Virus record (IMG/VR): IMGVR_UViG_3300031669_000084
Span: 1 to 40,506 of that record
Length of the DNA: 40,506 nucleotides
Source of the DNA: a virus
Strand: one strand, 5' to 3'
The position numbers were made by a program, and so were the translations under genes. This document shows positions 604-30,127 of the stretch, piece after piece (positions within the stretch are counted from its first letter, which is position 1; each line of letters begins with the position of its first letter). Below the pieces are notes generated by a model, which worked only from the letters and a program-made list of their open reading frames with translations, did not search any database and was not told the DNA's origin.

Positions 604-1890
604 GACGCACTGAGGGGCGGGTGGACGGTAGTAGTCGGTGGCTATGACATCCAGGGGAACCAGGCCAATTGCACCGCGCTAGGGGGCGCTCCGTTAGTTG
701 AAGCTGTGGCTGTGGCTGATTCGGGTCTCTCGGATGGGATCGTAGCGTGTGATATTCCGATTCTGGCCGCAGGCACTCATGCCATCGGAATCGTCTTTCG
801 TTATCAGGACGCGAACAATTTCTGGATCTGGCAGATTCACAGCAATGGGAACGCCTATCTGGGGTACATCCAGGCGGGCGCCTGGATTGCAGTGAGCACT
901 CTGACCCTGGGCATGGAGCGAAGTTATTGGTATCACCTGATGGTGAAAATGAGGGCGGACCGGATCGATTGCTACATCGGCGGAATCTGGAGAACGGGTA
1001 CGAACAACGCCCTCTTCCAGACTGAGACGGAACATGGGATTAGAGATAGTTCGTCAACTGGGGGTAGACATGACAATTTCGAGGTCTACCAGGCGTTACC
1101 TCTGTGGCCACTATTCTACGAGGACGGGGAGAGCTGCTACGCAGCACTGAAGGATGCAGCGTCATTCGGAGATTGGGATTACCGAGCGCTCGGTTGGGGC
1201 GTGGAGACAGGCGGCGATCGGGTCTATCTCAGGGAGGCGGACCGGGAGAGCGTGAGATACGTGATCCCGGCACAGTATTGCCGGCAGCTCTCCTCGAGGG
1301 GCGAGACGCAGAGGGGCTTTTACTCGTCGGGGTGGGCGAAATACATCGACGAGGAGGGGATGCAGCGGTTCACCGTGCCATATTACGTGCACGTGACGAA
1401 CGATGGGCTGGAAGTGAACACCACGGCGACGGGGGACGATCTGGCCAGCGTGGTATATGGCGTGGATCGGGATCACGTGTTCGATTTCGGCCGGGTGGAT
1501 GAGGGGCTGGCGGTAGAGTATCTGCAGCAGGCGCTGAGGGAGAGCGGCCATCCACAGGTGAAGGCCTCGATCGAGGTGTATGGCCCGGTGCAGGATCTAC
1601 ACCGCGGAGGGGCCTTGATCGAGCCGGTGGAGATGGAGATGGGGTATCTGGTGAGGATACCGTATTTCAGGGCCACGGAGGCGCAGGGGGGCGGGGGAGT
1701 GGACCTGCGAGATTATGATACCACGCTATTGATGGTGGGGCTGGATGTGGACCTGGAGGGGGGAACGGCGAGGCTGATCCCGGAGGGCGCGCAAGAGGAT
1801 CTGGAGAGGATCATCAAGTATGCCAGGGCCTTTGTGCAGAAGGAGGAGACGGAGCACATCGCCAAGAGAAGCCGGGTGATAGGGGGATAG
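1..1890 (+). CDS. Tail tip / adsorption protein, C-terminal part (5' end cut by window)
   Basis: The frame is open from base 1; an internal ATG at 19 is not the true start, because the residues before it (YKKW) align with an internal part of the gene that begins at 39553. Residues 1-150 form a variable beta-rich domain. From about 180 to 370 lies a laminin-G/concanavalin-like jelly roll that starts with DTFTDANG and ends with NFEVY. The last 250 residues resemble siphovirus tail tip proteins only in general character. If the window ends join, the full protein is about 746 residues. Its place after the tape measure and before the lysis genes supports a role in host recognition at the distal tail. 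Binding specificity cannot be told. One copy of the dispersed palindrome lies inside at 1181. Confidence 0.7.
   Translation, partial: YKKWEPMTRNKDSSCWSESFNMNNSGQLYIAPRKGETFSMTGPYGEYYFYSPYANIVRVSFDYDFVDPDSWVIVLYRTVGDPWNIGADTLEWLVNATGSGVKDITLTGNSQFIRFRMYYAQAAAVYNLDTGICRANISNLRIWGQATESPSVIHVAEDAIDQVEAASPIDASHDLVQEQLAVRDTFTDANGVLLANHQPDVDALRGGWTVVVGGYDIQGNQANCTALGGAPLVEAVAVADSGLSDGIVACDIPILAAGTHAIGIVFRYQDANNFWIWQIHSNGNAYLGYIQAGAWIAVSTLTLGMERSYWYHLMVKMRADRIDCYIGGIWRTGTNNALFQTETEHGIRDSSSTGGRHDNFEVYQALPLWPLFYEDGESCYAALKDAASFGDWDYRALGWGVETGGDRVYLREADRESVRYVIPAQYCRQLSSRGETQRGFYSSGWAKYIDEEGMQRFTVPYYVHVTNDGLEVNTTATGDDLASVVYGVDRDHVFDFGRVDEGLAVEYLQQALRESGHPQVKASIEVYGPVQDLHRGGALIEPVEMEMGYLVRIPYFRATEAQGGGGVDLRDYDTTLLMVGLDVDLEGGTARLIPEGAQEDLERIIKYARAFVQKEETEHIAKRSRVIGG
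1181..1194. repeat. Dispersed palindrome, site A
   Basis: A perfect 14-base palindrome, ACCGAGCGCTCGGT, inside the tail tip gene. It is the fully symmetric form of the 15-base motif ACCGNGCGCTCGGTA found at 6345, 15585, 25412 and 30113. Here it is coding (YRALGW). Confidence 0.75.
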
Positions 1891-1891
1891 A

Positions 1892-2122
1892 GTGGACCAT
1901 GATGGGCTGGTCAAGGAGGCGGAGGGCATAGCCGCGAAGCTAACGGCGGGGGAGCGATCGGAGCAGGGATACATCTGGGCATACGTGGCCAACCATGAGC
2001 TGCGGATGGTGATCGAGAAACTAGCGGCTCTCACGAAGCTGGTCTGGGGGATCCTGCTGGCGCTGGTGCTGACTCTGGGCAGCGCGGTGATAGGGATGGT
2101 CTTCAAGGTGCTGACGGGATAG
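1892..2122 (+). CDS. Small one-helix membrane protein, XhlA/holin-like
   Basis: A 76-residue protein with a charged amphipathic N-terminal two thirds and one strong membrane helix near residues 49-70 (LVWGILLALVLTLGSAVIGMVF). This layout, a coiled-coil-like soluble part followed by one C-terminal helix, is typical of XhlA-type holin-associated proteins. The GTG start at 1892 lies one base after the tail gene stop and follows a purine-rich GGGGGA; no in-frame ATG exists. It sits directly before the endolysin, so a role in lysis, as holin or holin partner, is likely. Family assignment rests on topology and position, not on a diagnostic motif. Confidence 0.6.
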   Translation: MDHDGLVKEAEGIAAKLTAGERSEQGYIWAYVANHELRMVIEKLAALTKLVWGILLALVLTLGSAVIGMVFKVLTG

Positions 2123-2131
2123 GAGAGGGAG

Positions 2132-4210: not shown

Positions 4211-4214
4211 GTGG

Positions 4215-4313: not shown

Positions 4314-4314
4314 G

Positions 4315-4695
4315 GTGGGAATACTAGCAGCAGTGGCGTTTGTGGCGTTCGTGGGAGAGAAGTTCGCCGAGCGAACTGTGAAGATGATCGTCAAGGCGAT
4401 CTCTCCATATTTCGCCGACAAGGTGAATCAGGACCTCGCCGACCTGCTGGAGGCAGTGGTGTGTGCGATACCAGGATTCGCCCTGAGTCTGTTGGCGGGG
4501 CTTGATCTGTTCCCCGCCGTAGGGTTGCCCCTGGCTGGATCGAGCGGCCTTTGGATCACGGCACTCGGCGCTGGATTCGGCAGCAACCTGATTCACGAGA
4601 TCGTGGGCGCGATCCCTGATGGTACGACTATCAACTGGGCGCTGTATGAGATGGGAAGCGCGCTGGAGAAGGAGCGGAAGGACCCTGACGTTTGA
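4315..4695 (+). CDS. Putative holin
   Basis: A 126-residue protein with hydrophobic stretches near residues 2-14, 46-66 and 77-95 (LWITALGAGFGSNLIHEIV), separated by short charged loops, and a charged C-terminal tail. The GTG start at 4315 follows a strong AGAGGAG. Being downstream of the endolysin and the last gene before a terminator fits a holin, which would permeabilise the membrane and release the lysin. No family motif is visible, so the assignment rests on topology and neighbours. The 76-residue protein at 1892 could instead be the main holin with this one as an antiholin. Confidence 0.55.
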   Translation: MGILAAVAFVAFVGEKFAERTVKMIVKAISPYFADKVNQDLADLLEAVVCAIPGFALSLLAGLDLFPAVGLPLAGSSGLWITALGAGFGSNLIHEIVGAIPDGTTINWALYEMGSALEKERKDPDV

Positions 4696-4704
4696 TGAGT
4701 TGGA

Positions 4705-4730
4705 GACCCGAGAGGGTCGCGTTAGTTTTT
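4705..4730 (+). terminator. Short hairpin with T run after lysis cassette
   Basis: A five-base-pair perfect stem GACCC/GGGTC closed by a GAGA (GNRA) tetraloop, with a run of five T at 4726-4730, eight bases after the stem. The spacing is longer than usual, so on its own it would be a weak terminator. Confidence 0.4.
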
Positions 4731-4737
4731 CTCCTCC

Positions 4738-4775
4738 CCCGAGCCCCCTGGGCGTCAAGCCTGGGGGGTTTCGGG
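4738..4775. terminator. Strong hairpin between convergent lysis and integrase genes
   Basis: A long GC stem pairs 4738-4753 with 4759-4775, with one bulged T and a five-base loop. It lies between the stop of the rightward lysis cassette (4695) and the stop of the leftward integrase (4824). The following T run on the + strand is short, so it may act as a bidirectional barrier or with the hairpin at 4705. Confidence 0.55.
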
Positions 4776-4823
4776 TTTGGGGTGGCTCGCAGTGGTTCTC
4801 GAAGCGGCGCAGCGGGCGCGAAA

Positions 4824-6338
4824 TCAATGCGAGAGGGCGATGGATTGCGAGCCCTGGCGGACTTCGACGCGGAGGCCGATGCGGCGCAGGAGTACCTTGA
4901 CGCGACGCGCGACCTCGGGGTCATGCCAGTGGGCGCGTAGATAGTCCAGGCCCGGAGCCATGCCCGTCTCGAGGGTGACGCTGAGGACGTCAGGATCCAG
5001 GCGAGGGCGACGCTCCTGGATCTGCTGTAGAGATGCGTCCAGGACCTCGATGTCGTCCTCGAGGCGCCGCCGGTGCTCGTAGTATTCGTACCGCCCCAGC
5101 AACCCATCTTCGTAGTCGCGGGCCCAGCGGTCCAACGCGGCTCGCTTGCTTTGCCGTGCCCTCTCCAGCTCTGCTTCCCGCTCCTCGTCCGCCTGTAGCT
5201 GATCCCCCATCATGGCTGCCATGTCATTCGCCAGGAGGTCGGGCCGCGTAGCCCGATCGTAGAGCCATTGGAGCACGGCCTGGTCGAGGAGGTCCATACG
5301 GATCGTGTTTCTCCGTGTGGGGCGGTCGCATTCAGAGCGCGGGGTGCGACAGATGAAATAGCGATAGACGTGCTCTCCCGAACTGGTGACGGTGGCAGAC
5401 ATGCGTTGCCCACAATAGCCGCAATAGATCGAACCGCTGAGGGGGTAGCGCCGGAGGGGAGCGTGGCCGTTCTCCCGGGCATCGAGTTCGAGCTGGGCGG
5501 CCTCCCACGTTTCCTCAGAGATGAGGGCCTGGTGGAGTCCAGCGCCGGTGATCCATTCTGAGCGATCGCGGAACCTGTGACCTGACTCATCGATGCGGTG
5601 ATAGCCGATGGTGCCCATGTAGAAGGGGTTGCGGAGGATGTATTTGATGCCATAGAAGGAGCGGGGATACCGACCCGAGGCCACGGTAGGGACCTGCTCC
5701 TGGATATGGCTGATAGGGACGCCATCCAGGAGCCAGTCGAACATCTGGCGGACTACAGGGGCCTCCGGCTCGTAGATCTGACAGATGCCCTCGGCCCCGA
5801 GCCGGTATCCATAAGGGATCATGTTGGCGTGGTAGCCGTCTCTGGCGCGACGTCGCATCCCCGTTCGATGACGGGCCCGGATCTCTGCGGTCTCATCCTG
5901 GGCCTTGGCCCTCTCCACGGAGCGCATCCAGATCGAGGCGCGATCGGTGTGCTGGGCGAACTCCTCTGGATCCAGGATCCGCGTGGGCATAGTCAGTGAG
6001 TGGACCTGGACATTGTAGGAGGCGAGATACTCCTCCACCTGGGCGATGAGGGCATCGGTGCGCCCCAGGCGGTCGCGTCCTCGGCAGATGAGGAGGTCAA
6101 TACTACCCGAACGGGCTAGAGACATCACCTCTGTGTACACAGGCATCTCGGCCGCAGCGTCGGCCAGGAAGATGTAGCTGCGGGAGTGGCCACCTACGAC
6201 GAGAGGCTCGTGGACCTCATGCCAGCCCTCGTTGCGGGCGACGAGCTCGCGGGCGGAGTCGAGTTGAGAGGGGATGGAATCCTTCTCTTCGGAGGCCTGC
6301 GGTTTGGAGGAGACGGCCGCCCAGATGATACATCTCAT
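4824..6338 (-). CDS. int: Large serine recombinase (phage integrase)
   Basis: A 504-residue site-specific recombinase. The N-terminal catalytic domain has the nucleophile Ser10 in VSSKPQ and the conserved basic motif RGRDRLGR at 86-93. The recombinase domain follows (about 160-290, NPFYMGTIGY), then a zinc ribbon with C306, C309, C330 and C337, and a long coiled coil (about 365-440). It would insert the phage genome at attB and form the prophage. The residue two before the nucleophile is Ala8, where resolvase/invertase-type enzymes carry a conserved Arg (YxRVS). Start codon ATG at 6338 has no clear Shine-Dalgarno; the palindrome at 6345-6359 occupies that region. It is the last gene of the leftward lysogeny operon. 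Confidence 0.9.
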   Translation of the reverse strand: MRCIIWAAVSSKPQASEEKDSIPSQLDSARELVARNEGWHEVHEPLVVGGHSRSYIFLADAAAEMPVYTEVMSLARSGSIDLLICRGRDRLGRTDALIAQVEEYLASYNVQVHSLTMPTRILDPEEFAQHTDRASIWMRSVERAKAQDETAEIRARHRTGMRRRARDGYHANMIPYGYRLGAEGICQIYEPEAPVVRQMFDWLLDGVPISHIQEQVPTVASGRYPRSFYGIKYILRNPFYMGTIGYHRIDESGHRFRDRSEWITGAGLHQALISEETWEAAQLELDARENGHAPLRRYPLSGSIYCGYCGQRMSATVTSSGEHVYRYFICRTPRSECDRPTRRNTIRMDLLDQAVLQWLYDRATRPDLLANDMAAMMGDQLQADEEREAELERARQSKRAALDRWARDYEDGLLGRYEYYEHRRRLEDDIEVLDASLQQIQERRPRLDPDVLSVTLETGMAPGLDYLRAHWHDPEVARRVKVLLRRIGLRVEVRQGSQSIALSH

Positions 6339-6344
6339 AGTGCT

Positions 6345-6359
6345 ACCGCGCGCTCGGTA
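6345..6359. promoter_or_regulatory. Dispersed palindrome, site B, in front of integrase
   Basis: The sequence ACCGCGCGCTCGGTA lies six bases upstream of the integrase start codon and one base beyond the stop of the 41-residue membrane peptide. A protein bound here could block integrase expression. It may also overlap the phage attachment site, which in serine-integrase phages is often next to the integrase start; no core can be defined without the bacterial site. Confidence 0.6.
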
Positions 6360-6360
6360 T

Positions 6361-6486
6361 TCACGGGGTGAGCTGGGGGACGTACCAGAGCAGGGCGCAA
6401 CCGCAGATGAAGATGATGATCACAAAGACGATAGCGGTAGAGCAATTGAAGGGGGCTCCTGATTTCTGAGGCTGCTCAGTGGTCAT
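6361..6486 (-). CDS. 41-residue membrane peptide in the lysogeny operon
   Basis: A 41-residue frame between repressor and integrase on the - strand. Its ATG overlaps the repressor stop as ATGA (6483-6486), a sign of translational coupling. The product has a short polar N-terminus (MTTEQPQKSG) and one clear membrane helix from about residue 17 to 36, rich in Val, Ile and Phe. Expressed together with the repressor from the prophage, it is well placed to be a superinfection-exclusion or other lysogenic-conversion peptide. This role is inferred from context only; no family is recognised. Confidence 0.6.
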   Translation of the reverse strand: MTTEQPQKSGAPFNCSTAIVFVIIIFICGCALLWYVPQLTP

Positions 6487-6890
6487 GATCCCTCCCTATA
6501 CGCTTCCTGAGCTTCAGCGGCCTTCTTCAGCTCGTGGCCTCGTTCCGCATCGACGAGGGCCTGGGCCATCCAGATGAGTTGATCCAGTGCTTCTCGGCGC
6601 GTGTGATGCGCCCTGATCTGGCGGATGGTATCTATGAGTCGCTGTTCCCTGGGCATAAGGACCCCCAGGGAGGGCAGCGGGTGCTTCCAGCCGGCGGCCT
6701 CCATCAAGTAGTCAGTAGTGACATTCAGTGCATCAGCTATCCGCGCAAGAACGCGAGCGTTGATTGTCTCATGAACATCGCGCTCGATCTTGCTCAGATG
6801 AGACTGATCGATCCCGCTTCGGAGAGCCAACTGTCCTTGTGACCAACCGCGTTCTTCGCGGAGCTGTCGAAGTGTGGGTCCTAGTGTCAT
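6483..6890 (-). CDS. XRE-family repressor (CI-like)
   Basis: A 135-residue regulator with an N-terminal helix-turn-helix near residues 12-60: TLRQLREERGWSQGQLALRSG then a recognition helix QSHLSKIERD. The C-terminal half is helical and lacks any visible LexA/CI-type autocleavage Ser-Lys peptidase, so induction would use another route. I chose the ATG at 6890 because it follows GGAG with six bases of spacing; an upstream in-frame ATG at 6947 would add 19 residues but covers the likely promoter at 6916-6924. It sits divergent to the Cro-like gene, as expected for the lysogeny switch, and heads a three-gene operon with a membrane peptide and integrase. Confidence 0.85.
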   Translation of the reverse strand: MTLGPTLRQLREERGWSQGQLALRSGIDQSHLSKIERDVHETINARVLARIADALNVTTDYLMEAAGWKHPLPSLGVLMPREQRLIDTIRQIRAHHTRREALDQLIWMAQALVDAERGHELKKAAEAQEAYREGS

Positions 6891-6915
6891 AGGTCGCTCC
6901 GCCCTAGTTTCAATC

Positions 6916-6924
6916 ATTATACCA
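6916..6924 (-). promoter_or_regulatory. Extended -10 promoter for the repressor operon
   Basis: On the - strand the sequence reads TGGTATAAT, a perfect TATAAT with the TGN extension, 26 bases upstream of the repressor ATG at 6890. No good -35 hexamer is seen at 17 bases, as is common for extended -10 promoters, which may be activated by the repressor itself. Confidence 0.65.
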
Positions 6925-6985
6925 GGTCTAACGGGAAGAGTGCTCATTAAAGAGTGCGTCTAACCTTAAAATATTCCACAGATAC

Positions 6986-7014
6986 TTGACAACAGGAAAG
7001 AAAGTCTGTATACT
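6986..7014 (+). promoter_or_regulatory. Early rightward sigma-70 promoter (PR-like)
   Basis: TTGACA at 6986-6991 and TATACT at 7009-7014 with a 17-base spacer, about 30 bases before the Cro-like start at 7047. It would drive the whole early operon. Confidence 0.8.
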
Positions 7015-7021
7015 GTTTCCT
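6994..7021. promoter_or_regulatory. Candidate operator over the early promoter
   Basis: An inverted repeat AGGAAA (6994-6999) / TTTCCT (7016-7021) brackets the -10 box of the early promoter. A bound dimer of the repressor or Cro-like protein would block transcription. The dispersed 15-base palindrome is absent from this switch region. Confidence 0.35.
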
Positions 7022-7046
7022 AGAGGCAAGGGAAGAGTTACCAAAC

Positions 7047-7412
7047 ATGAGTGCTATCAACATTGTGGCGAGACTCAGGGAGAAACAGGAGGAACTCGGC
7101 AGCACCCAGGCAGAGCTGGCGGAGATGCTGGATGTCAGCGAGGGCACGATTAGCCGTGTCTACTCCGGGCGGAGGAACCCCGGAAGGGCGGTGATCATGG
7201 GGATGCTGAAGGTATGGCCGGATGTGTTCAGCGAGAACGGAGGAGGCGATGAAGAGCCGGAGGGCGACGGAGGTAGTGGGGACGCTGGCGATGATCGCGC
7301 TGGTGATCCTGACGGCGACGGAGATAGTGGGGATGCTGGCGATGATCGCGCTGGCGCTCCTGTGGCTCTGCGGGCTGCTGGGGCTCCCGCTGCCGTTGGG
7401 ACAGTAGAGTGA
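7047..7412 (+). CDS. Cro-like XRE regulator with acidic repeat tail
   Basis: A 121-residue protein. Residues 1-65 form a helix-turn-helix domain (TQAELAEMLDVSEGTISRVYSGRRNPG), divergent to the repressor and directly behind the early promoter, the usual place of Cro. Residues 66-121 are low complexity, rich in Asp and Gly, with the repeated block GDSGDAGDDRAG caused by a 51-base tandem duplication. That tail overlaps a second frame starting at 7249 that encodes a membrane protein. The stop overlaps the next GTG as GTGA (7409-7412), which argues that this long frame is translated to its end. Whether the tail has a function is unknown. Confidence 0.7.
   Translation: MSAINIVARLREKQEELGSTQAELAEMLDVSEGTISRVYSGRRNPGRAVIMGMLKVWPDVFSENGGGDEEPEGDGGSGDAGDDRAGDPDGDGDSGDAGDDRAGAPVALRAAGAPAAVGTVE
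7249..7407 (+). CDS. Overlapping small membrane protein with duplicated helix
   Basis: A 52-residue frame inside the 3' half of the Cro-like gene, in a different phase. Its ATG at 7249 has the strongest ribosome binding site nearby (GGAGGAGG, two bases before the ATG). After a basic N-terminus (MKSRR) it has two consecutive copies of a 17-residue hydrophobic unit, ATEVVGTLAMIALVILT and ATEIVGMLAMIALALLW, then LCGLLGLPLPLGQ, giving one or two membrane helices. Stop at 7405-7407 is two bases before the next gene. The start signal and coherent membrane topology support a real overlapping gene. Function unknown. Confidence 0.5.
   Translation: MKSRRATEVVGTLAMIALVILTATEIVGMLAMIALALLWLCGLLGLPLPLGQ
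7263..7364 (+). repeat. 51-base tandem duplication in two overlapping frames
   Basis: Units 7263-7313 and 7314-7364 are nearly identical. In one frame each unit encodes a 17-residue Asp/Gly-rich block of the Cro-like tail; in the other, a 17-residue hydrophobic helix. The unit length, a multiple of three, preserves both frames. Confidence 0.75.
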
Positions 7413-7678
7413 CGATAGACGGGTTCACGATCACGGCGCAGGCCTCGGACGAGGAGATCGGCCGGGCGTTCCTGCGCCTGCTGCTTTCTCTGGGAGGAGA
7501 AACCGATGAGACCCACCAACCTGAGCATGAGCAACTTCATGCCCTACGCCGACGCCGAGCTGGATCTGAGCTCGCTACACCTGGCGTGTCTGGCCGGCGA
7601 GAACGGCCACGGCAAGTCGGCGATCATCGACGCCATCACCTGGGCGTTGTGGGGCAAGGCACGGGCCCGGCGGGATGA
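7409..7678 (+). CDS. Small protein overlapping the start of the SbcC-like gene
   Basis: The GTG at 7409 overlaps the Cro-like stop (GTGA). Residues 1-32 look like normal protein (MTIDGFTITAQASDEEIGRA, then FLRLLLSLGG). From about residue 33 the frame runs out of phase through the start of the next gene for 172 bases and becomes rich in Arg and His, as expected of a shadow reading. The N-terminal part probably marks a real translated gene whose end may have been changed by fusion or loss of a stop. It contains the ribosome binding site of the SbcC-like gene. Function unknown. Confidence 0.4.
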   Translation: MTIDGFTITAQASDEEIGRAFLRLLLSLGGETDETHQPEHEQLHALRRRRAGSELATPGVSGRRERPRQVGDHRRHHLGVVGQGTGPAG

Positions 7679-9767
7679 TGAGCTGATCCGCCTGGGCGAA
7701 GAGCAGATGGAGGTCCGCCTGGACTTCCTCCTCGGTGACCAGCGATACCGAGTGATCCGCCAGAGGGACAGCTCAGGCCGGGGCAACTCCACGCTGGAGT
7801 TCCAGGTGGGGGGCAATGGGCAGTGGAGCGCGCTCTCGGGCAGCGCCATCAGGGAGACGCAGACGATCATCAACGAGACGCTCTCCATGGATTACGACAC
7901 CTTCATCAACTCGGCGCTCTTGCTCCAGGGCCGGGCGGATGAGTTCACGAATCAACCCCCAGGGAAGCGCAAGGAGATCCTGGGGGAGATTTTACGCCTC
8001 CACGATTGGGATGATCTGGAGGAGAGGGCCAAGATCCGGGCCAGAGAGGCGCAGGGAGCGGCCAGCGCCATCGAGGCGAAGGCGCAGAGCATGGACGAGG
8101 AACTGGAGAAGCTCCCCGCCTATGAGGCTGAGCTCGAGGAGGCTTCGGAGCGAGCAGAACTGATCGGGGGTGAGATCGACGAGGCCCAGGGCAGCCTGGA
8201 CCGGAAGAAGGAACAGGTCACAGAGCTATCATTCAAGCAACAGGCGCTGGCAGACGTGGAAGGGGAGGGGCGCCGGCGGAGGGAGGAACTAGAGTCGCTG
8301 CGGCGGCGGATCGAGCATCCTGGTAACCATCTCGGGGCTGATCTGGGATTGGTGCAGGATCAGATCACCGGCTACCAGAAGGAAGCAGCGGAGATCACGC
8401 AGCGGATGATCGGTTTTCATCCCGTGAAGTTGGAGTCATGCCGGGCAAAGGTGGCAGCGGTCCGGAGTGACTTGGCCGGGATGGCGGATCTGGCCGACAA
8501 GAGGAAGGCGCATGAGCAAGAGATTGGCCATCTCTCTGCAGAGAAGGCCAGCCTGACGGCCACGAATACGAGGCTACGAGAGGACATGGACGCCTTGAAG
8601 GAGGAGATGGCGCTCCTCGAGAGAGCGGGGGCCGCATGTCCTCTTTGCGATTCTGAGCTCACCGACGAACACCGCCAGGAGATTCTCTCGGGCAAGCAGG
8701 CCGAGGGCAAGGCGAAGGCGGACGAATATCGGAAGAACAAGGAGATCATCGAGGAAGATGACAACGAATTGAGCGCGTGGCAGCAGGCCCTGCGTGAGAT
8801 AGAGACGGAACTCAATCGGGAGAGATTGCTCCGACAACAGGAGAGTGAAGGCGTCGCGCTAGTAGCGAAGCTAGAGGCCGAACAAGAACGCCTCGAGGAG
8901 TGGAGCGCGCAGGTAGAGAAGCTCAAAGAGTCTATCAGGGAAGCCAAGGATCGCCACGAGACCATGAAGGCCGAGCGGATCGCCGAATGGGAGGGAGAAG
9001 CGGCGAAGCTCGAGGAGACCGTCGGCGAGCTCAGGACCAAGAGCGACGCGCTGCGACTAGAGCTGGCCGGTGCGGACGAACTGACCCGAGCGATGGGGGA
9101 ACTACAGGCGCAGATCCAGAGGCTGGATTTGGAGCTTAATCACGTCCGGCAGAAGGTAGGCGGGGCCCAGCAGAAGCTCGATCATTGCCAGTACCTCGAG
9201 AAGGAGAAGGCGAAGCTGGAGCAGCAGCACGCGGAGGCCTCCTCCTCCTCCTATCTCTACGAGCAGTTGAAGCTGGCCTTCGGCAAACGGGGCATCCAGG
9301 CCATGATCATCGAGACGGTGCTCCCCGAGATCGAGGAGGGCGCCAACGAGCTGCTCGGGAGGATGACGGACGGGCGGATGAGCGTCCAGTTCGAGAGCCA
9401 GAGGGAGACCAAAGCGGGCACCATCAGTGAGACGCTGGACATCCAGGTGGGAGACGAGCTCGGGACGAGGAGCTATGACCTGTTCTCGGGTGGAGAGCGG
9501 TACAGACTGGACTTCGCCATCAGGATCGCCATCTCGCAACTCCTGGCCAGGAGAGCGGGGGCGAGGCTGGAGACGTTGATCCTCGATGAGGGCTTTGGAT
9601 CGCAGGACGCCGCCGGCCGTGAGAGGCTGGTGGAGGCGATCAACTCCATTCAGGGCGACTTCGGATTGGTCCTGGTGGTGACGCACATCGAGGAGTTGAA
9701 GGAGCAGTTCCCCGCGCGGATCGAGGTGGTGAAGGGCCCGGCGGGGAGCGTGGTGAGTGTGAACTGA
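7506..9767 (+). CDS. sbcC: SbcC/Rad50-like SMC-type ATPase
   Basis: A 753-residue ATPase of the Rad50/SbcC type. Walker A is GENGHGKS at 31-38. A long coiled coil is split by a zinc-hook motif CPLC near residue 378. The C-terminal half carries the ABC signature FSGGERYRL near 660 and Walker B LILDEGFGSQD near 690. With its nuclease partner, encoded two genes downstream at 10272, it would form a dimer that opens and trims DNA ends or hairpins, in replication, recombination or removal of host DNA structures. It is shorter than bacterial SbcC, through a shorter coil, which is usual in phages. ATG at 7506 follows GGGAGGAG. Confidence 0.92.
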   Translation: MRPTNLSMSNFMPYADAELDLSSLHLACLAGENGHGKSAIIDAITWALWGKARARRDDELIRLGEEQMEVRLDFLLGDQRYRVIRQRDSSGRGNSTLEFQVGGNGQWSALSGSAIRETQTIINETLSMDYDTFINSALLLQGRADEFTNQPPGKRKEILGEILRLHDWDDLEERAKIRAREAQGAASAIEAKAQSMDEELEKLPAYEAELEEASERAELIGGEIDEAQGSLDRKKEQVTELSFKQQALADVEGEGRRRREELESLRRRIEHPGNHLGADLGLVQDQITGYQKEAAEITQRMIGFHPVKLESCRAKVAAVRSDLAGMADLADKRKAHEQEIGHLSAEKASLTATNTRLREDMDALKEEMALLERAGAACPLCDSELTDEHRQEILSGKQAEGKAKADEYRKNKEIIEEDDNELSAWQQALREIETELNRERLLRQQESEGVALVAKLEAEQERLEEWSAQVEKLKESIREAKDRHETMKAERIAEWEGEAAKLEETVGELRTKSDALRLELAGADELTRAMGELQAQIQRLDLELNHVRQKVGGAQQKLDHCQYLEKEKAKLEQQHAEASSSSYLYEQLKLAFGKRGIQAMIIETVLPEIEEGANELLGRMTDGRMSVQFESQRETKAGTISETLDIQVGDELGTRSYDLFSGGERYRLDFAIRIAISQLLARRAGARLETLILDEGFGSQDAAGRERLVEAINSIQGDFGLVLVVTHIEELKEQFPARIEVVKGPAGSVVSVN

Positions 9768-9768
9768 G

Positions 9769-10275
9769 ATGATATTCAAGCAGTGGGAGCAAGTGCTGGG
9801 GTTGACCCTACCGCTCAAGAGCCAGACGCGGCGGGTCAATTGCCCCTACGAACTCGCCGTGCAGCTATGGAAGCATGGGTGGAGCTATCCCCGGAACAAT
9901 CGTAGGACTTCAGGAGGGAGTGTTTATCGTCCATATACTCCTTGGGATGAATGGCAGAAGCGACATCCGATCACCGATGCCCAGATTGCCGAGGCCAACC
10001 GCATCCTTGCTGAGCACGTCGTCACCCTTCCGGTCCAGCCGGGCCGGGGCAAGAAGTCTATGGGCCGGATACGAATAACCAAGATACGGCGGGAGAGGCT
10101 ACAAGACATCAAGCCAGAAGAGTTCCGTAAGGAAGGGCTAGTCAGTGGTGCCCCGATTATGATTCTGTGGTTTATCGAACTGTGGAGCAAGATGTACCGG
10201 AAGCCCTACCGCTGGGAGGACAACCCCGATGTGTGGGTGCTGGAGTTTGAACTGGTCAAAGGGAGTGAATCATGA
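9769..10275 (+). CDS. ASCH/PUA-like domain protein
   Basis: A 168-residue protein placed between the sbcC- and sbcD-like genes and overlapping the latter by ATGA. The motif pattern fits phage ASCH-like proteins: an N-terminal LKSQTRRV, a central PGRGKKSMGRIRITKI and a C-terminal WEDNPDVWVLEFEL. The ASCH fold is related to PUA RNA-binding domains and is thought to bind modified nucleotides or RNA. No catalytic site is certain. Whether it acts with the SbcCD-like pair or is a passenger cannot be told; insertion exactly between the two subunit genes makes a linked role plausible. Confidence 0.6.
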   Translation: MIFKQWEQVLGLTLPLKSQTRRVNCPYELAVQLWKHGWSYPRNNRRTSGGSVYRPYTPWDEWQKRHPITDAQIAEANRILAEHVVTLPVQPGRGKKSMGRIRITKIRRERLQDIKPEEFRKEGLVSGAPIMILWFIELWSKMYRKPYRWEDNPDVWVLEFELVKGSES

Positions 10276-11501
10276 GAATCCTACACTTCGCTGATGCGCA
10301 CACTGGTTTGGATGACTCAGGGCCCATCGATCGGCAGACAGGGCTGAGCGCGCGCTTGACGGACTACCTGGATTCGCTGGACCGGATCGCCGAGTACGTG
10401 GAAACGCAGGACATCAACGTGGTGGTCTTCTCCGGCGATGCCTTCCACGTCTGCCGGCCCACCCCCACTTTCGAGCGGGAGTTCGCCAAGAGAATCAACA
10501 GGATGGCCTCCAGTGCCCCCGTGGTCGTGCTGGTGGGCAACCATGACATGCCGGGAGCGTTCGGAAAGGCGCATCCTCTGGCGATCTACTCGGCACTCCA
10601 TGTGCCGGAGGTGCATGTGGTGGACCGGCCTCAGTTGCTGCACCTGGAGACCCATGCAGGCTCGATCCAAGTCGTGGGGATCCCCTGGCCCAGCAGGCAC
10701 AACGTGATGACCTCTGAGAAGGTCGCCGGTTTGCCCAAAGAGGAAGTCAACCGCCTGATCGGCGAAGCGGTGGCGGAGAGCATACAGAAGCTGGCCCGGA
10801 AGATGGACCCCGATTTGCCCTCCATCCTGGCGGCCCATCTGAGCGTCGAGGGCGGCGACATGGGCGGAGGCACGCCGGTGGGGTTGGGAACTGAGATCTC
10901 CTTGCCTCTCGAGGCGGTGGCGCTGCCACAGTTTGACTACGTGGCCCTGGGCCACCTCCACAAATACCAATCGCTGAACGACAGCCCGCCCGTGGTGTAT
11001 GCCGGCAGCATCGAGAGGAACGACTTCGGCGAGGAGCACGAGGAGAAGGGCTTCGTGGTAGTGGAGTTGGGGAACGGGGACGAGGATGATCTGCTCGAGG
11101 GGGCATTCACCAGCGTGGAGTTCGTGCCCCTGCCGGCGAGGAAGTTCGTGACCATCCAGGTCTCTCTTGATGGTACGGATCCCACCCAGGCGGTGCTCCA
11201 GGCGATCGGGGAGCGGCAGATCGAGGACGCGATAGTGAGGGTGATCATCGAGGGCACGGCGGAGCAAGCGGCGCTGCTGGATGAGACGCAGGTGCAGCGG
11301 GCGCTGAAGCCGGCCCTGCGCCAGGCGGTGAACAAGAGGATCGAGCGGGAGACCAGGACGCGCCTCGAGGGGATGAGCTATCAGGAGATGAGTCCCTATG
11401 CTCTGCTGGGGGCATATCTGGAGAGCAACGGGAAGGGGCCGGAGGAGTGTGAGGCGCTGATGAAGGCGGCAGAGGAGTTGATGATGGAGGTGGCGGCATG
11501 A
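10272..11501 (+). CDS. sbcD: SbcD/Mre11-like nuclease
   Basis: A 409-residue metallophosphoesterase. All phosphoesterase motifs are visible: DAH at 8-10, GDAFH at 55-59, GNHD at 89-92, H189 in LAAHLS, and GHLH at 227-230. These bind two metal ions (usually manganese) and cut DNA. The C-terminal half should form the capping and SbcC-binding regions. The start ATG overlaps the ASCH-like gene stop (ATGA), so the three genes are translationally coupled. It is the nuclease partner of the ATPase at 7506. A function in phage DNA recombination or end processing is inferred from the family. Confidence 0.92.
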   Translation: MRILHFADAHTGLDDSGPIDRQTGLSARLTDYLDSLDRIAEYVETQDINVVVFSGDAFHVCRPTPTFEREFAKRINRMASSAPVVVLVGNHDMPGAFGKAHPLAIYSALHVPEVHVVDRPQLLHLETHAGSIQVVGIPWPSRHNVMTSEKVAGLPKEEVNRLIGEAVAESIQKLARKMDPDLPSILAAHLSVEGGDMGGGTPVGLGTEISLPLEAVALPQFDYVALGHLHKYQSLNDSPPVVYAGSIERNDFGEEHEEKGFVVVELGNGDEDDLLEGAFTSVEFVPLPARKFVTIQVSLDGTDPTQAVLQAIGERQIEDAIVRVIIEGTAEQAALLDETQVQRALKPALRQAVNKRIERETRTRLEGMSYQEMSPYALLGAYLESNGKGPEECEALMKAAEELMMEVAA

Positions 11502-11713: not shown

Positions 11714-11933
11714 CATAGTCCAGCAGATCGTGGAGCGGGGAATGGAGGAGAAACAGGGCAAGCCCAATTGCTCACGCTGTGCCGATGAAGACCATTGCCT
11801 GATTGCCTTCATGGGTCCAGCGATCAAGATCAAGCCCAGCTACGTTGCAGCTCCTGGCTGTGGCCGGTTCGAGCCCAAGAGATATGATGCGGGGGAGGAG
11901 GACGATGCAGATCAAGGGTCTGAGAAAGGTTAA
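11706..11933 (+). CDS. Small Cys-containing protein
   Basis: A 75-residue protein with four Cys (CSRCADEDHC near 22-31 and C52), spaced loosely enough for a metal or iron-sulfur site. The C-terminus is acidic. ATG at 11706 overlaps the previous gene end, and its 3' end overlaps the next gene (11905), so it belongs to the same coupled operon. Family and function are not recognised. Confidence 0.6.
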   Translation: MSNIVQQIVERGMEEKQGKPNCSRCADEDHCLIAFMGPAIKIKPSYVAAPGCGRFEPKRYDAGEEDDADQGSEKG

Positions 11934-12879
11934 GCGGTTCAAAATCATCGGGCGGATCGGCCTGGGGATCACCGTGCCTGTCCTGGACAAAAAGACGGGG
12001 CAGCAGGTGATCAGGGATGGGGAGCCGGTGACCATGCCGCAGTCCACCGATCATTTCGTTGTGCCCCCAGAAGTGGCTGAGGTCCTGCGCGACAGCACGC
12101 CCAAGGCGATGCGGATCCACTTCGAGAGAGACAGCCTGGATGACGTGTTCCCCACCGGCCTGATGCAGTTCCGGGGCAACGGCGATCTGATCTGCATGGG
12201 CGATGGCGAGAGGGTCACCTTCCGCCGGCACATCGCTTCCGATCACTCCACCGAGACGGTGGTCTACGAGAGGGTCGCGCGTTGGGATCGGATCGAGGAG
12301 CTGGGCCTGCTGGAGGAGAAGAAGTGGGCCGACGAGAAGAACGGCTACGGCACCACCGAGCGGATCGGAACGAACGCGATCAAGTGTCTCTACATGGATT
12401 GCCCGCGGTACAAGGCGCTGCTCTGCAAACCCACCGGGAAGCTCAGGTTCTGCATCGAGGGCGTCACCACGCGCCAAGGGTATTACCAAATGACCGTCCA
12501 CTTCAACCCCATGAGAGAGATCATCACTCAGCTCGACGATGGCCGGCAGCGGATCAGGAACCACACTGGCCGGGCCACCATCGTCTGGCCCGCGAAGTGG
12601 CGGCTGAAGCTCACGGGGCCCACAGAGCAATGGATGAATGTCAGGAAGGGCGGGCAGACCGAGAAGCGCCTGATCAAAAACATCTACACGCCCGAGCTGG
12701 AGCTGGATCCTCTGTGGCTGGAGGACCTCGAGGCGGGCCGGGTGGAGTTTCCCCAGATGGAGACGCTGACGGACACCGACGTCTGGGGTCCGCAAGAGGA
12801 AGAGTTGGACAAGAGCCTTCTCGATCCAGAGCCGTTCGTGGAGAGCAGCAACGACGAAGAGGATGATCTGCCGTTCTGA
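11905..12879 (+). CDS. Putative gp3-like recombination directionality factor with SSB-like tail
   Basis: A 324-residue protein. I chose ATG 11905 because of the strong GGGGGAGGAGG just before it. The middle part carries a block resembling the phiC31 gp3-like family: LICMGDGERVTFR, then CLYMDCPRYKALLCKPTGKL, with a likely metal-binding Cys cluster (about residues 162-175). In that family the protein binds a large serine integrase and switches it to excision. The C-terminus ends in NDEEDDLPF, closely like the acidic tip by which SSB proteins dock host repair proteins. Presence of a serine integrase supports the call. An alternative is a general DNA-binding replication protein. Confidence 0.5.
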   Translation: MQIKGLRKVKRFKIIGRIGLGITVPVLDKKTGQQVIRDGEPVTMPQSTDHFVVPPEVAEVLRDSTPKAMRIHFERDSLDDVFPTGLMQFRGNGDLICMGDGERVTFRRHIASDHSTETVVYERVARWDRIEELGLLEEKKWADEKNGYGTTERIGTNAIKCLYMDCPRYKALLCKPTGKLRFCIEGVTTRQGYYQMTVHFNPMREIITQLDDGRQRIRNHTGRATIVWPAKWRLKLTGPTEQWMNVRKGGQTEKRLIKNIYTPELELDPLWLEDLEAGRVEFPQMETLTDTDVWGPQEEELDKSLLDPEPFVESSNDEEDDLPF

Positions 12880-16772: not shown

Positions 16773-17415
16773 AGGCTGGATCGGCTCGGTGGAGATCTCC
16801 CAGCGGATGGGGTTCTCGACGTCGTGGAATGCGATCAAACTGTGTCGCTCCCGGGGCATCGAGGAGTACCGGCATGAGAATCCCGGCGGTGGGCATCCCC
16901 TGGCGCTGTTCCGCCGCGATGAGGTGGAGGCGCTAATCAGGGAGCGGCGCCATGAGCAGTGGCTGGAGGCGCAGGGCTTGAAGAAGTGCGCCACCTGCGG
17001 AGAGTGGAAGGATCGGGAGCATCAATATTGGGGCAGAAACTCTCAGTGCATCGAATGCGCCAAGGAGACGGGCCGAAAAGACCGGCAGAAGCACCCCCGA
17101 TCGAGGCGCAGTAGCACGCCGGCAGAAGATCATCCCTGGCGCCAGTCGGGGATCCACGTAGGGGCGGGGTCGGCTGGCCCGGTGGATGAGTACGTGGCCT
17201 CGGGCGGCGGCCCTTCTCCTGATGATAGTCTGCAATATGCCTGCCTGGATCGCGGTTTTGCGGTGAGGCCGTGCCTGCCAGGGAAGAAGAGGGCCACATT
17301 CTGCATCAAGTGCACGGCGGGACGATGCCAATGGCATCCGAAATTGACCCCCGGGCAGATCAGGGTGAGAGCGGGGCTGCCGGCTGAGGTCCAGGTAGAG
17401 GCTGAAGGCACATGA
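16753..17415 (+). CDS. Helix-turn-helix protein with zinc-finger (HNH-like) centre
   Basis: A 220-residue protein overlapping the ParB-like gene by 20 bases. Residues 8-65 resemble a MerR/excisionase-type winged helix (GSVEISQRMGFSTSWNAIKL, then a wing with PGGGHPLALFRRDEV). Residues 78-104 hold CATCGEW and CIECAKE, a zinc pair like those in HNH endonucleases, but the HNH catalytic His residues are not evident. The C-terminal part has two further Cys pairs (CIKC, C). It might be a regulator, an excisionase-like architectural protein or a decayed homing nuclease. Confidence 0.5.
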   Translation: MKTQIPEGWIGSVEISQRMGFSTSWNAIKLCRSRGIEEYRHENPGGGHPLALFRRDEVEALIRERRHEQWLEAQGLKKCATCGEWKDREHQYWGRNSQCIECAKETGRKDRQKHPRSRRSSTPAEDHPWRQSGIHVGAGSAGPVDEYVASGGGPSPDDSLQYACLDRGFAVRPCLPGKKRATFCIKCTAGRCQWHPKLTPGQIRVRAGLPAEVQVEAEGT

Positions 17416-23724: not shown

Positions 23725-25817
23725 TGGGATTGAGAGACAGGCTGCAACTAGCGGCATGGGCACTGTTCAACAGCAAGGGCATCTCGGGCCTGGACATGCT
23801 GATGGGCGCCGATGCCAAGAGCTGGTTCCCCAAGACCGATTTCAACCGCCTCTCTGCCGAGGGCTACGAGTACAACGCGGTGGTCTATGCCTGTGTGAAT
23901 GAGCGGGCCACGTCCACCTCCGAGCCCAGGGTGGTAGTAGAGACCAAGGATCGCAAAGGCGAATGGCAGGAGAAACCGGATCACTCGATGGCGCGGCTGC
24001 TCGACAGGCCAAACGTGGAGATGAGCCAGTACGACTTCTTCTTCACCACTGTGATGTATCTGGACATCGCGGGGAACGCCTTCTGGGAGAAGGAGCGGAG
24101 CAAGGCGGGCAGAGTAGTGGGGCTCTGGCCCATGCGGCCCGATCGCGTGGGAATCGTCGCTCTGGAGAGCAAGCCTGGCGAGAGGATCAAGCGCCGGATC
24201 GAAAGCTATACCTGGCGGTATATGGCTGATCTGATCACCCTGCCGGCCCGAAATGTGATCCAGTTCAAGCATCAGCACCCCCGGGATGATCTCTTCGGGT
24301 GGCCTCCGCTGGGATCCGCCGCGCGCCAGGGAGACACGGACAACCGCGCCACGAACTACGTGGCCAGCTTCTTCGACAACGCCGCGGTGCCGAAAGGGCT
24401 GCTCTCGGTCAAGGGGCGCATCGATGACGCCGAAGAGAAGCGACTGAAGAAGCGCATTCATGCTCAGTTCACAGGTCAGGGCGGATGGCACGATACGCTG
24501 ATCCTGGGAGAGGGCTCCACGTGGACCGAGCTGGCCGAGACCTTCAAGGACATGGACTTCCCCAATCTCCGCAAGATGACGGAGAGCCGGATCTGCATGG
24601 TCTTCCAGGTGCCGCCAATCCTCATCGGTGCGTTCGTGGGTTTGGAGCACGCTACATACAGCAACTATGGCGAGGCCAGGGAGAGCTTCTGGAAGGAGAC
24701 GCTGATGCCCTTCTACCGGAAGCTCCAAGACACGCTCAATCGGGGCCTGGCGCCGGAGTTTGGGCCGGACGTGCGGATGAGGTTCGACTTCTCGACGGTG
24801 ATGGCCCTCCAGGAGGACAAGAATCAGATCTGGACTCGGGCCAGGGAGGCGGCCACTGCCGGCTTCATCACTGTCAACGACTTCCGGGAGCAGGTGGGCT
24901 TGCCCAGGGTGCAGGATGGAGACGTCTTCCTGCGGCCAATGATGATCTCGGAGATCCCCGCGCTGGAGGAGGGGCAGCAGAAGGCGCTCCAGATCAGCTC
25001 GCCAGAGACGAAGATGGCCAGCAAGCTCGACGAGGAGAAGCTGGAGGTCTACTACAAGGCCTTCGACATGGTGGCCCGGGCCTGGGAGGCACAGTTCCGC
25101 CGCAAGGCACAGCAGCTATTCGCGGAGGAGCTGGCGCAGATCCTGGCCATTCTCCGCAAGGAGGGCAAGGCCTCGATCGAAGGGCTGGCGTTTGCGGGGT
25201 TCCTGGATGCGGTGATCGCCTTCCTCATTGGTCGAAACGGCCAGCAGGGGGCTTGGGCGCAGGGCTTCTTCCCACTGTTCGAGGGGCTGATGGAGAGCCA
25301 GGCGGAGAACGTGGCCGGCGCGCTGGGCATCGCCTGGGACATCGCCTCTCCGGAGGCGCAGGAGTTCATCCGGGGATACACGATCAAGTTCGCCGACACG
25401 GTGGTGCCCACTACCGAGCGCGCGGTGAGGGAGCTGGTGGGGCAGGCGCAGGAGGAGGGGTGGTCGGTGCCCCGGCTGCGCGAGGAGATCACTGAGCGGT
25501 TCACTGAGTTCGATGAACAGCGGGCGAACGCCATCGCCAGATCGGAGACCATCAGGAGCTCCAACGCCGGGACGCATGAGGCCTGGAGATCGGCGGGGAT
25601 AGAGAGGACGCAGTGGTATGCGAGTATCGATGGCCGGCAGTGTCCCTTCTGCGAGGACCTATACATCAAATACGGCCCGGGGACGCCGGGCATCTCGATC
25701 ACAGAGAACTATGTCAATCTGGGGGATACGCTGACGGTGGATGCGGGCGATGGGAAGAGCAAGAGCATGACGGTCACTTATACGGACGTCGCCTATCCCC
25801 CCCTGCACGCGCTTTGA
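23724..25817 (+). CDS. Portal protein fused to MuF-like head morphogenesis domain
   Basis: A 697-residue fusion. Residues 1-410 are an HK97-type portal (NAVVYACVNERATSTSEPRV; DRVGIVALE; NVIQFKHQHPRDDLFGWPPL; the conserved YSNYGEARESFW at about 312-323). Residues 430-530 are helical, and 560-697 a MuF-type domain (RSETIRSSNAGTHEAW; DGRQCPFCEDL; AYPPLHAL). The portal forms the DNA gate; MuF proteins sit at it or enter the cell. The frame ends in TGA where the family has Cys (PPLHxxCRC); nine further residues of perfect MuF character follow in frame. See the separate entry at 25815. The fusion itself is known in other phages. Confidence 0.88.
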   Translation: MGLRDRLQLAAWALFNSKGISGLDMLMGADAKSWFPKTDFNRLSAEGYEYNAVVYACVNERATSTSEPRVVVETKDRKGEWQEKPDHSMARLLDRPNVEMSQYDFFFTTVMYLDIAGNAFWEKERSKAGRVVGLWPMRPDRVGIVALESKPGERIKRRIESYTWRYMADLITLPARNVIQFKHQHPRDDLFGWPPLGSAARQGDTDNRATNYVASFFDNAAVPKGLLSVKGRIDDAEEKRLKKRIHAQFTGQGGWHDTLILGEGSTWTELAETFKDMDFPNLRKMTESRICMVFQVPPILIGAFVGLEHATYSNYGEARESFWKETLMPFYRKLQDTLNRGLAPEFGPDVRMRFDFSTVMALQEDKNQIWTRAREAATAGFITVNDFREQVGLPRVQDGDVFLRPMMISEIPALEEGQQKALQISSPETKMASKLDEEKLEVYYKAFDMVARAWEAQFRRKAQQLFAEELAQILAILRKEGKASIEGLAFAGFLDAVIAFLIGRNGQQGAWAQGFFPLFEGLMESQAENVAGALGIAWDIASPEAQEFIRGYTIKFADTVVPTTERAVRELVGQAQEEGWSVPRLREEITERFTEFDEQRANAIARSETIRSSNAGTHEAWRSAGIERTQWYASIDGRQCPFCEDLYIKYGPGTPGISITENYVNLGDTLTVDAGDGKSKSMTVTYTDVAYPPLHAL
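24660..24719 (+). repeat. Portal segment duplicated at 21182-21241
   Basis: These 60 bases match the segment inside the small protein gene at 21182-21241 in 55 positions, and all five mismatches are synonymous. The encoded 20 residues are identical and belong to the best conserved part of HK97-type portals. Confidence 0.9.
25412..25426. repeat. Dispersed palindrome, site E (reverse orientation)
   Basis: On the - strand it reads ACCGCGCGCTCGGTA, identical to site B at 6345. It lies within portal code (TTERAV), in the opposite orientation from sites B, C and D, which argues for a double-strand DNA signal rather than an RNA hairpin. Confidence 0.7.
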
Positions 25818-25847: not shown

Positions 25848-25856
25848 GAGGCGAAC

Positions 25857-26249: not shown

Positions 26250-26258
26250 GGGGTTGAT

Positions 26259-28741: not shown

Positions 28742-28748
28742 ACAATCG

Positions 28749-28772
28749 GGGGAGGGGTGAAAGCCCCTCCCC
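28749..28772 (+). other. GAAA-capped hairpin after the major capsid gene
   Basis: A nine-base-pair perfect stem GGGGAGGGG/CCCCTCCCC, extended by one T-G pair and closed by a GAAA tetraloop. There is no T run, so it is more likely a 3' stabiliser of the capsid mRNA or an attenuator than a full terminator. The next gene's ribosome binding site begins right after it. Confidence 0.55.
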
Positions 28773-28786
28773 AGCAGGAGGCCAAT

Positions 28787-29248: not shown

Positions 29249-29261
29249 CCAGGAGGGCGAA

Positions 29262-29756: not shown

Positions 29757-29776
29757 TCTAAGGGGGAGAGGAGAGT

Positions 29777-30109
29777 ATGCCAACACCTATAGAGCAACGT
29801 ATATACCACGCCAAGATCGAGGAGAAGGATGGGCTGCGGGTCATCGACAACGGCACTACGCTCGTCGAGACCATAGGCCCTTGGCACACGCACATCGGGA
29901 GGCCGGGAGAGGCCGTTCATTCGACCAAGTTCTTCCCGCCCGAGCGTGTGCTGGTGCCGGAGAGCATGGCGGAGCACCTGGTAAAGGGCAACGCCGCGGT
30001 GATCCTGGGCACGGGGGCGAAGGCCAGGAAGAAAGGCCCGGCGCCGGAGAACAAGTTGCTGGTGCCCCAGGAGAACAAGGCGGACGACGACGGTTTGCTG
30101 GAGGAATAG
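29777..30109 (+). CDS. Hypothetical head-region protein, 110 residues
   Basis: A protein starting MPTPIEQRIYHAKIEEKDGL, with segments TIGPWHTHIGRPGEAVHS and FPPERVLVPESMAEHLVKGN and a charged C-terminal tail (KARKKGPAPENKLL). No recognised domain. It lies after the decoration-like pair, and the palindrome at 30113 starts three bases after its stop. Confidence 0.5.
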   Translation: MPTPIEQRIYHAKIEEKDGLRVIDNGTTLVETIGPWHTHIGRPGEAVHSTKFFPPERVLVPESMAEHLVKGNAAVILGTGAKARKKGPAPENKLLVPQENKADDDGLLEE

Positions 30110-30112
30110 CTT

Positions 30113-30127
30113 ACCGGGCGCTCGGTA
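30113..30127. promoter_or_regulatory. Dispersed palindrome, site C, before the glycosyltransferase gene
   Basis: ACCGGGCGCTCGGTA sits in TTACCGGGCGCTCGGTAA (30111-30128), three bases after one stop and 18 bases before the next ATG. It is one of the two copies outside coding sequence and could act as an operator for the genes from 30146 onward. Confidence 0.6.

Follow-up and report, generated by a model that had tools for sequence, protein, structure and literature searches.

In Bacillus, Noc is an orphan ParB-family protein with scattered 16-bp Noc-binding sites, or NBS (PMC8429893), and on plasmid RK2 another protein of this family, KorB, represses over long range as a clamp that uses cytidine triphosphate, CTP (PMC11790492). 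Among phages, the closest literature includes mycobacteriophage parABS (PMC7157519), the dispersed centromere-like sites of the temperate phage N15 (PMC3235114) and the 17-bp repeat of Corndog (cluster O), a dispersed palindrome lying in and between the genes of that phage (PMC4351075). ParB-like genes have also been counted in glacial phages (25 genes, 13 of them also with a ParA-type family; PMC4490671), and a 2025 survey describes orphan ParB-like proteins as frequent on mobile elements, phages included, with functions that are largely open (PMC12704722). In the open-access literature I found no description of an orphan phage ParB whose dispersed cognate sites had been mapped, most subscription papers and preprints being outside the scope of that search. 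Here I describe IMG/VR record IMGVR_UViG_3300031669_000084, one whole virus record of 40,506 bases (hereafter the window), which contains five copies of one degenerate 16-bp palindrome and encodes a ParB-like protein. These sequences are best read as an orphan ParB clamp, Noc/KorB-like, that has dispersed loading sites of its own, and I consider it quite likely that the phage's ParB/Noc-family protein has its cognate loading sites in the five palindromes.

An earlier sequence-only reading of the window had placed five dispersed copies of a near-palindrome in it, and all five were confirmed where it put them: the pattern ACCGNGCGCTCGGT gives six strand-wise matches at five places, against a mean of 0.01 and a largest count of 1 in 100 dinucleotide shuffles. 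The 14-base cores (1181-1194, 6345-6358, 15585-15598, 25413-25426 in reverse and 30113-30126) are extended by their flanks to the 16-bp palindrome TACCGAGCGCTCGGTA, from which each copy departs by one or two mismatches, and when all 16-bp palindromes were ranked de novo, this one came out on top, with a weighted score of 8 against 4 for the best of 20 Markov-resampled sequences; a five-copy motif was thus produced by neither shuffled nor resampled sequence. Allowing three mismatches to the perfect 14-mer gives six matches in the window, and the extra one, at 23305, carries no evidence as a site since 10 of 100 shuffles also reach six. Regarding gene contexts, the copies in parB and before the integrase gene (int) were described correctly, and the interval between the repressor and cro genes is indeed free of the motif, as had been said of the early promoter region. 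The glycosyltransferase that was thought to follow the site at 30112 did not materialize, no such match being found for the gene 3' of it, which matches phrog_1574 in PHROG (function not known) and has zero Pfam matches; the gene containing the site at 1181 has no Pfam or PHROG match.

A motif-only scan of viral_contigs (2.9 million contigs) with the pattern TACCGNGCGCTCGGTA returned 26 stretches on 20 viral contigs, of which four (G002, G006, G007 and G012) hold the exact motif at several separate places. When the window ParB was searched in all 20 records, matches were obtained in exactly these four, at 46-61% identity, and in none of the other 16; the matches span query residues 1-549 to 1-551 in three contigs and 110-549 in G007, where parB is cut off by the contig end. 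Such a split would have a chance of 1 in 4,845 if holding several sites and holding the ParB had nothing to do with each other, but the four are relatives. With the looser pattern ACCGNGCGCTCGGTA, the best 80 of 118 stretches lie on 76 contigs, and among the matches listed the same four contigs are the only ones with more than one place, while 59 further contigs have one copy each; a ParB search of these 59 gave two distant hits (27% and 37% identity) and zero close ones, and altogether none of 75 single-copy viral contigs (the 16 plus the 59 among the matches listed) has a close ParB homologue. The de novo ranking also put TACCGAGCGCTCGGTA first in G002, G006 and G012 (scores of 8-9 against 3-4 for the best of 20 controls) and tied first in the short G007 (6 against 3). 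By megablast, neither half of the window matched anything among phages.

Approached from the protein, an alignment of four ParBs run against viral_contigs recovered those four contigs alone; a scan of the same collection with a single ParB sequence found no relative, and neither did a first scan of genome_contigs. A scan with the portal gave two remote loci, which were set aside. When only the helix-turn-helix part was used, genome_contigs gave 170 stretches, one of which encodes a relative, on a 65-kb contig (C93) of a Chloroflexota metagenome-assembled genome (MAG). This contig is the held-out case, picked by protein with its sites found afterwards: ACCGNGCGCNCGGT occurs at four places in the whole 4.3-Mb MAG, all of them on C93, and at none when read backwards. 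The prophage on C93 extends from about 13.6 to 52.9 kb (limits judged from gene content, not att sites), has an integrase, repressor, SbcCD, directionality factor, ParB, portal, capsid and endolysin in the same gene order as the window, and lies between bacterial-looking flanks, with a transglycosylase, methyltransferase, oxidoreductase and hydrolase on the left and a mannosyltransferase-type protein on the right; as C93 comes from a MAG, its binning could be wrong. A ParB search through 396 genomes of the host class (E up to 1e-40) and nine of the order (E up to 1e-30) recovered only the known MAG, and tblastn of ParB gave 57 phage and 484 plasmid records, all below 60% identity and none covering 80% of the protein. 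The virus group is small, with one member integrated in a Chloroflexota assembly. The check proposed on related phages came out in favor of the pairing, since all five records with a close ParB homologue hold several motif copies, four of them reached by motif and again by protein and the fifth, C93, by protein only.

Two placements recur throughout the group. A site lies upstream of the int start codon in all five genomes that hold int (by 5 nucleotides in the window, 83 in G012, 8 in G006, 47 in G002 and 5 in C93), and a site covers the same parB codons, those of window residues 162-166, in 6/6 parB copies (in degenerate form in G002). The window, C93 and G006 have a common site in the MuF-like region of the portal gene or its neighbor, and G002, G012 and G007 have one in a late gene; the remaining sites differ in position between phages, several of them immediately behind one gene's stop codon and shortly ahead of the following gene. 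Half-sites were counted over 23 sites from five genomes (the window, G012, G006, G002 and C93, with the duplicate G007 excluded), a partly circular exercise in that the sites were gathered by consensus similarity, the one exception being the parB site of G002, which was chosen for its location; fainter matches (31497 and 10963 in G012 and 11911 in G007, among others) were excluded. Positions 1-4 and 7 are invariant in 46/46 half-sites and position 6 is constant in 45/46, whereas position 5 is A in 30, C in 13 and G in 3, and the outermost position is T in 36, C in 9 and A in 1. The largest inter-site gap is 11.6 kb in the window, 11.9 kb in G012, 9.7 kb in G002 and 11.7 kb in the C93 prophage, and for sites placed uniformly on a circle the probability of so small a largest gap is 0.032, 0.022, 0.010 and 0.007, respectively, on the assumption of circular genomes and of prophage limits set by gene content; leaving out the parB site of G002 raises its largest gap to 13.8 kb and the probability to 0.119. 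These values are not independent of one another, the int and parB sites having been inherited in common, and they presuppose circularity and the chosen prophage limits, so the even spread of the sites is suggestive only.

The protein has ParB_N and HTH_ParB domains that both score above the Pfam cut-off, reaches 85.5 bits with TIGR00180 (cut-off 58.45), has nucleoid_noc as its best NCBIfam hit (120.5 bits, below that model's cut-off of 315) and shows a weak match to the Pfam KorB domain (22.8 bits, cut-off 22.3); by sequence it also matches solved ParB and Noc chains, best over residues 5-192 (E 7.4e-21). Its recognition helix, GKSQQWVSD, is identical in the five ParBs of the window, G012, G006, G002 and C93. 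In an alignment to Noc that is ungapped in the stretch concerned, Q141, K147, D152 and T169 are the equivalents of Caulobacter positions 173, 179, 184 and 201, where Noc has Q, K, K and R, and the corresponding strings are QKDT (window), QKKT (G012), QKDS (G006 and G002) and QRKT (C93), so that every string has Gln and, at 179 or 184, one Lys or more, with Thr or Ser at the 201 position. Jalal et al. reported that Q173 together with Lys at 179 or 184 leads to a preference for A at half-site position 1 (PMC7383237), and A occupies this position in 46/46 half-sites, in the register of the 16-bp palindrome with the same center. Six contact residues are conserved between ParB and Noc (PMC7383237), and of these Q162, G170, K171 and S172 are retained in all five proteins. 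Since parS and NBS differ at positions 1 and 6 (PMC7383237), the half-site TACCGnGC, with its G at position 6 and Thr or Ser at the 201 position, would be a third ParB/Noc-type specificity. In the CTP pocket, GxRR and the box III Asn are kept in 5/5 and ENL reads DNL. From the identical helix, the fitting length and symmetry of the site and the fit to the rule for position 1, I infer that ParB binds these sites. As a separate observation, several CxxC pairs occur in the C-terminal half (15903-16772), and by eye the distant ParB of contig G475 also has a CTDxxC stretch, which suggests a zinc domain common to some phage ParBs.

Several observations weigh against this view. The four multi-site contigs are relatives and hence not four independent events, and G007 overlaps G012 at 100% protein identity, so it duplicates part of G012 and is not independent of it. 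With the two-N pattern and one mismatch, G011 has two matching places and G008 has three, both without ParB, so weaker matches alone are not diagnostic. Within the group, the parB site of G002 is degenerate, contact residue N178 is Asp in all five proteins, R204 reads R, K, R, R and Q, and the GERR of the CTP pocket reads GHRR throughout, while the 2025 survey reports no nucleoside triphosphate binding for 17/28 proteins with this fold (PMC12704722). No Pfam family matches the Cys-rich C-terminal half, and the predicted fold is poor (AlphaFold mean predicted local distance difference test score of 49.5), too low for a fold search. Outside the group, no 16-bp palindrome rises above control in four records with distant ParBs (three Gordonia phages, one gut contig), which forbids generalizing to all orphan phage ParBs; the 14-bp GC-rich palindromes of the three Gordonia phages slightly exceed control (28 versus 24, 22 versus 18 and 22 versus 21), an excess that I read as base composition. 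Contig G475, with one looser-motif copy and a 37%-identical ParB carrying GKSR for GKSQ, likewise has no repeated 16-bp palindrome above control. Finally, the phages in question also share an integrase, a repressor and a Cro-like protein, so ParB cannot be singled out by co-occurrence alone, and a scan with the integrase gave only three members of the same group, leaving integrase and ParB inseparable by this means.

Who else, or what else, could account for the palindromes? If they were chance, or a by-product of protein sequence with sites falling within conserved codons, one would point out that in parB and the portal gene the site encodes T-[EAG]-R-[AS]-V, and T-x-R-x-V in parB itself. The synonymous codons there are T162 as ACC in 5/5, R164 as CGC in 4/5 and V166 as GTA in 4/5, compared with one codon kept in all five genomes at 6/74 comparable identical-residue columns of parB outside the site, yet this conservation is mildly unusual at best, being reached by 3,304 of 100,000 random triples. 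The stronger argument that the constraint would act on DNA rather than on protein is that the same 16-mer occurs in unrelated proteins and at non-coding spots, and this explanation, countered by the shuffles, the de novo palindrome ranking, the collection scans and the held-out Chloroflexota prophage (the last of which suffices on its own), deserves practically no credence and is rejected. That another DNA-binding protein of the phage is the binder, be it the HTH_3 repressor, the Cro-like protein or the integrase, is improbable, although there is precedent in the stoperators of mycobacteriophages, which are bound by the immunity repressor and are also present at its operators, and although all three genes accompany the sites in the window, G002, G006, G012 and C93. 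Between the window and three relatives, the repressor is 38-40% identical, with a recognition helix that looks different by eye, while the core of the site stays constant; moreover, the interval between repressor and cro, where the only sigma-70-like promoter found in 6200-7100 lies, is without a site. For the integrase, attP is expected 3' of int and not at the palindrome, judging from the prophage layout, and the full 16-bp palindrome with A at position 1 fits the ParB/Noc code.

How would the phage ParB use such sites? The two half-sites of the palindrome would be bound by HTH_ParB domains; then, by analogy with ParB, Noc and KorB, a nucleotide, most likely CTP, would close the N-terminal gate and the clamp would slide into neighboring DNA, with nucleotide gating, sliding and function all being what I infer. 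Neighboring sites are approximately 3-12 kb apart (13.8 kb in G002 without its degenerate parB site), nearly the whole genome of about 40 kb thus lying no more than 6-7 kb from a loader, so that clamps could cover it without a ParA. Because parB lies on the same strand as, and behind, the genes for the Cro-like protein, SbcCD and the recombination directionality factor, ParB is probably made during early lytic growth. I favor a double role in which ParB would cover or organize replicating phage DNA and would block transcription beside its sites, above all between the repressor-cargo genes and int: the int site separates the leftward repressor-cargo pair from int, and a clamp loaded there could block read-through into int, while the late sites, being mobile, point to a broader part for ParB in covering or organizing the genome. 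Which role dominates is much less sure than the pairing of ParB with its sites. Correspondingly, of the earlier proposal that the ParB-like protein binds the motif and thereby organizes or regulates the phage genome, the pairing is supported and this support does not extend to function.

Other functions can be weighed on the same evidence. ParB could bind the sites, as in the reading preferred here, and yet be mainly a KorB/VirB-like transcription regulator, with the int and parB sites as the key operators and the rest auxiliary; this is possible, if doubtful, as a site occupies these two places in every genome that holds the gene concerned (the parB site being degenerate in one copy) and as KorB, which slides with CTP, uses 16-bp OB operators both close to promoters and at a distance from them (PMC11790492). 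Several other sites, however, are intragenic or lie in post-stop gaps of 36-58 bases with little room for a promoter (window 30112, C93 44150 and G002 21562), although the site at 3377 of G012 lies in a 290-base gap and promoters may sit inside upstream genes, and positions that vary while number and spread persist suit loading sites better than operators. It is unlikely, but would be the phage counterpart of ParB-SMC at bacterial origins if true, that the system is a ParA-free viral chromosome organizer, in which a nucleotide-gated ParB clamp with about five sites would cover the genome in lytic growth, cooperate with the SMC-like SbcCD (and the adjoining EndoVII-like nuclease) and mark or sort self DNA. 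Very improbable, in turn, is an extrachromosomal (phage-plasmid) lysogen partitioned through dispersed centromeres with a borrowed host ParA. The sequence-only reading had noted a ParB without a ParA, and this holds for family PF13614, which matches none of five virus records (the window and four relatives) and all 14 control genomes, with ParM, TubZ and other ParA models not searched, and whose 11 matches in the MAG all lie off the prophage contig. The MAG probably has its own parAB, because ParA-like and HTH_ParB hits lie side by side on its contig C73, and these could serve such a lysogen. The canonical parS, TGTTTCACGTGAAACA, is absent within two mismatches from four of four virus records searched and occurs in the MAG at two places on other contigs (with one and two mismatches) against one for the backwards pattern, which is weak evidence; neither mark of a ParABS system, a PF13614 ParA encoded with parB or a canonical parS, was therefore found in the virus records searched. 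Dispersed centromere-like sites do exist in prophage N15, RK2, pSM19035 and pMF1 (PMC3235114), but the serine integrase, the directionality-factor-like gene and the C93 copy integrated between bacterial genes speak for an integrating phage, and the N-terminus of ParB is without an LG[KR]GL-type ParA-binding motif.

Table 1. Putative sites and selected genes of the window (positions 1 to 40,506).
Feature	Position	Strand	Remarks
parS-like site 1 (putative)	1180..1195	-	inside long late gene (tail region by gene order)
parS-like site 2 (putative)	6344..6359	+	5 nt upstream of integrase ATG
parS-like site 3 (putative)	15584..15599	+	inside parB, codons 162-166
parS-like site 4 (putative)	25412..25427	-	MuF-like part of portal gene
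parS-like site 5 (putative)	30112..30127	+	between stop of open reading frame (ORF) 29777-30109 and next start, 30146
orphan ParB-like protein, 556 amino acids	15102..16772	+	ParB_N 6-78, HTH_ParB 108-192, Cys-rich C-terminal half
large serine recombinase (integrase, int)	4824..6338	-	domain match
41-amino-acid ORF, membrane-type by eye	6361..6486	-	variable slot between repressor and integrase
HTH_3 repressor	6483..6947	-	domain match
Cro-like HTH protein	7047..7412	+	first of rightward genes
SbcC/Rad50-like ATPase	7506..9767	+	domain/family match
SbcD-like nuclease	10272..11501	+	domain/family match
Gp3-like recombination directionality factor	11803..12879	+	domain match
endonuclease VII-like protein	16753..17415	+	directly 3' of parB
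expected attP interval	4696..4823	.	between ORF 4315-4695 and int 3' end; inferred from prophage layout

A few further features of the window (Table 1) can be mentioned. The palindrome was rejected as attP, since int stands at the left edge of the prophage with its 3' end outward, and no copy falls within the expected attP interval; as a terminator it was also rejected, none being found in 6200-7100, the only stretch scanned. The cargo slot between repressor and integrase varies, holding the short ORF in the window, in G012 a 193-residue protein with zero Pfam matches, in G002 a protein that is weakly TPR-like and, in C93, an SNase-type protein (Pfam SNase 61 bits; PADLOC SNc+LTD) with a homologue in G006, and in the relatives it is found at L043:15307-15888, L038:11438-12274, L040:1706-2500 and L057:15264-16034; its genes are candidate lysogenic-conversion or exclusion genes. 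The SbcC/SbcD pair (7506-11501) is common to the five genomes holding the early region, and GCAGGAGGATTGA, with five occurrences in the window, resembles an extended ribosome-binding site common to several genes. The last 189 bases (40318-40506) resemble 415-603 with a 96% match, and in the Chloroflexota prophage a single tail-region gene spans both window ends (1-603 and 40318-40506), so that the record may represent an almost complete circle whose ends overlap over a short, diverged stretch.

Set beside the survey of orphan ParBs, this locus offers one protein for which likely cognate sites are at hand, whose recognition helix is conserved across several diverged phages and for which a phylum can be named as candidate host, and binding, nucleotide dependence and sliding become directly testable. 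The third specificity, with its TACCGnGC half-site, would be of use in working out the ParB-DNA recognition code and perhaps also as an orthogonal DNA-labeling pair. Compared with known systems, the dispersed palindrome in and between genes recalls Corndog, whose repeat differs in having 34 copies, 7-bp arms and a 3-bp spacer, and for which I noted no named binder (PMC4351075). N15 is likewise a temperate phage with dispersed centromere-like sites (PMC3235114), but it is a linear plasmid prophage with its own ParA, unlike the integrating phage described here, in which no PF13614 ParA was found. KorB of RK2 shares a ParB-family protein, 16-bp sites, a mobile element and the weak KorB-domain match, whereas RK2 has a ParA (IncC; PMC3235114), KorB works with KorA and the site sequence differs. 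The phage protein departs from Noc in that it is phage-borne and scores far below the Noc cut-off, in that its ParB fold starts at residue 5-6 without an N-terminal extension for an amphipathic membrane helix, and in that it has Thr or Ser for Arg at the 201 position and a Cys-rich C-terminal half. In common with Noc are orphan status, scattered 16-bp sites, nucleoid_noc as the best family hit, a Gln in place of residue 173 with Lys at 179 or 184, and A at half-site position 1 (the NBS half-site is TATTTCCC, that of the phage TACCGnGC), and, as in other systems of dispersed ParB-family sites, a 16-bp palindrome is repeated around the replicon.

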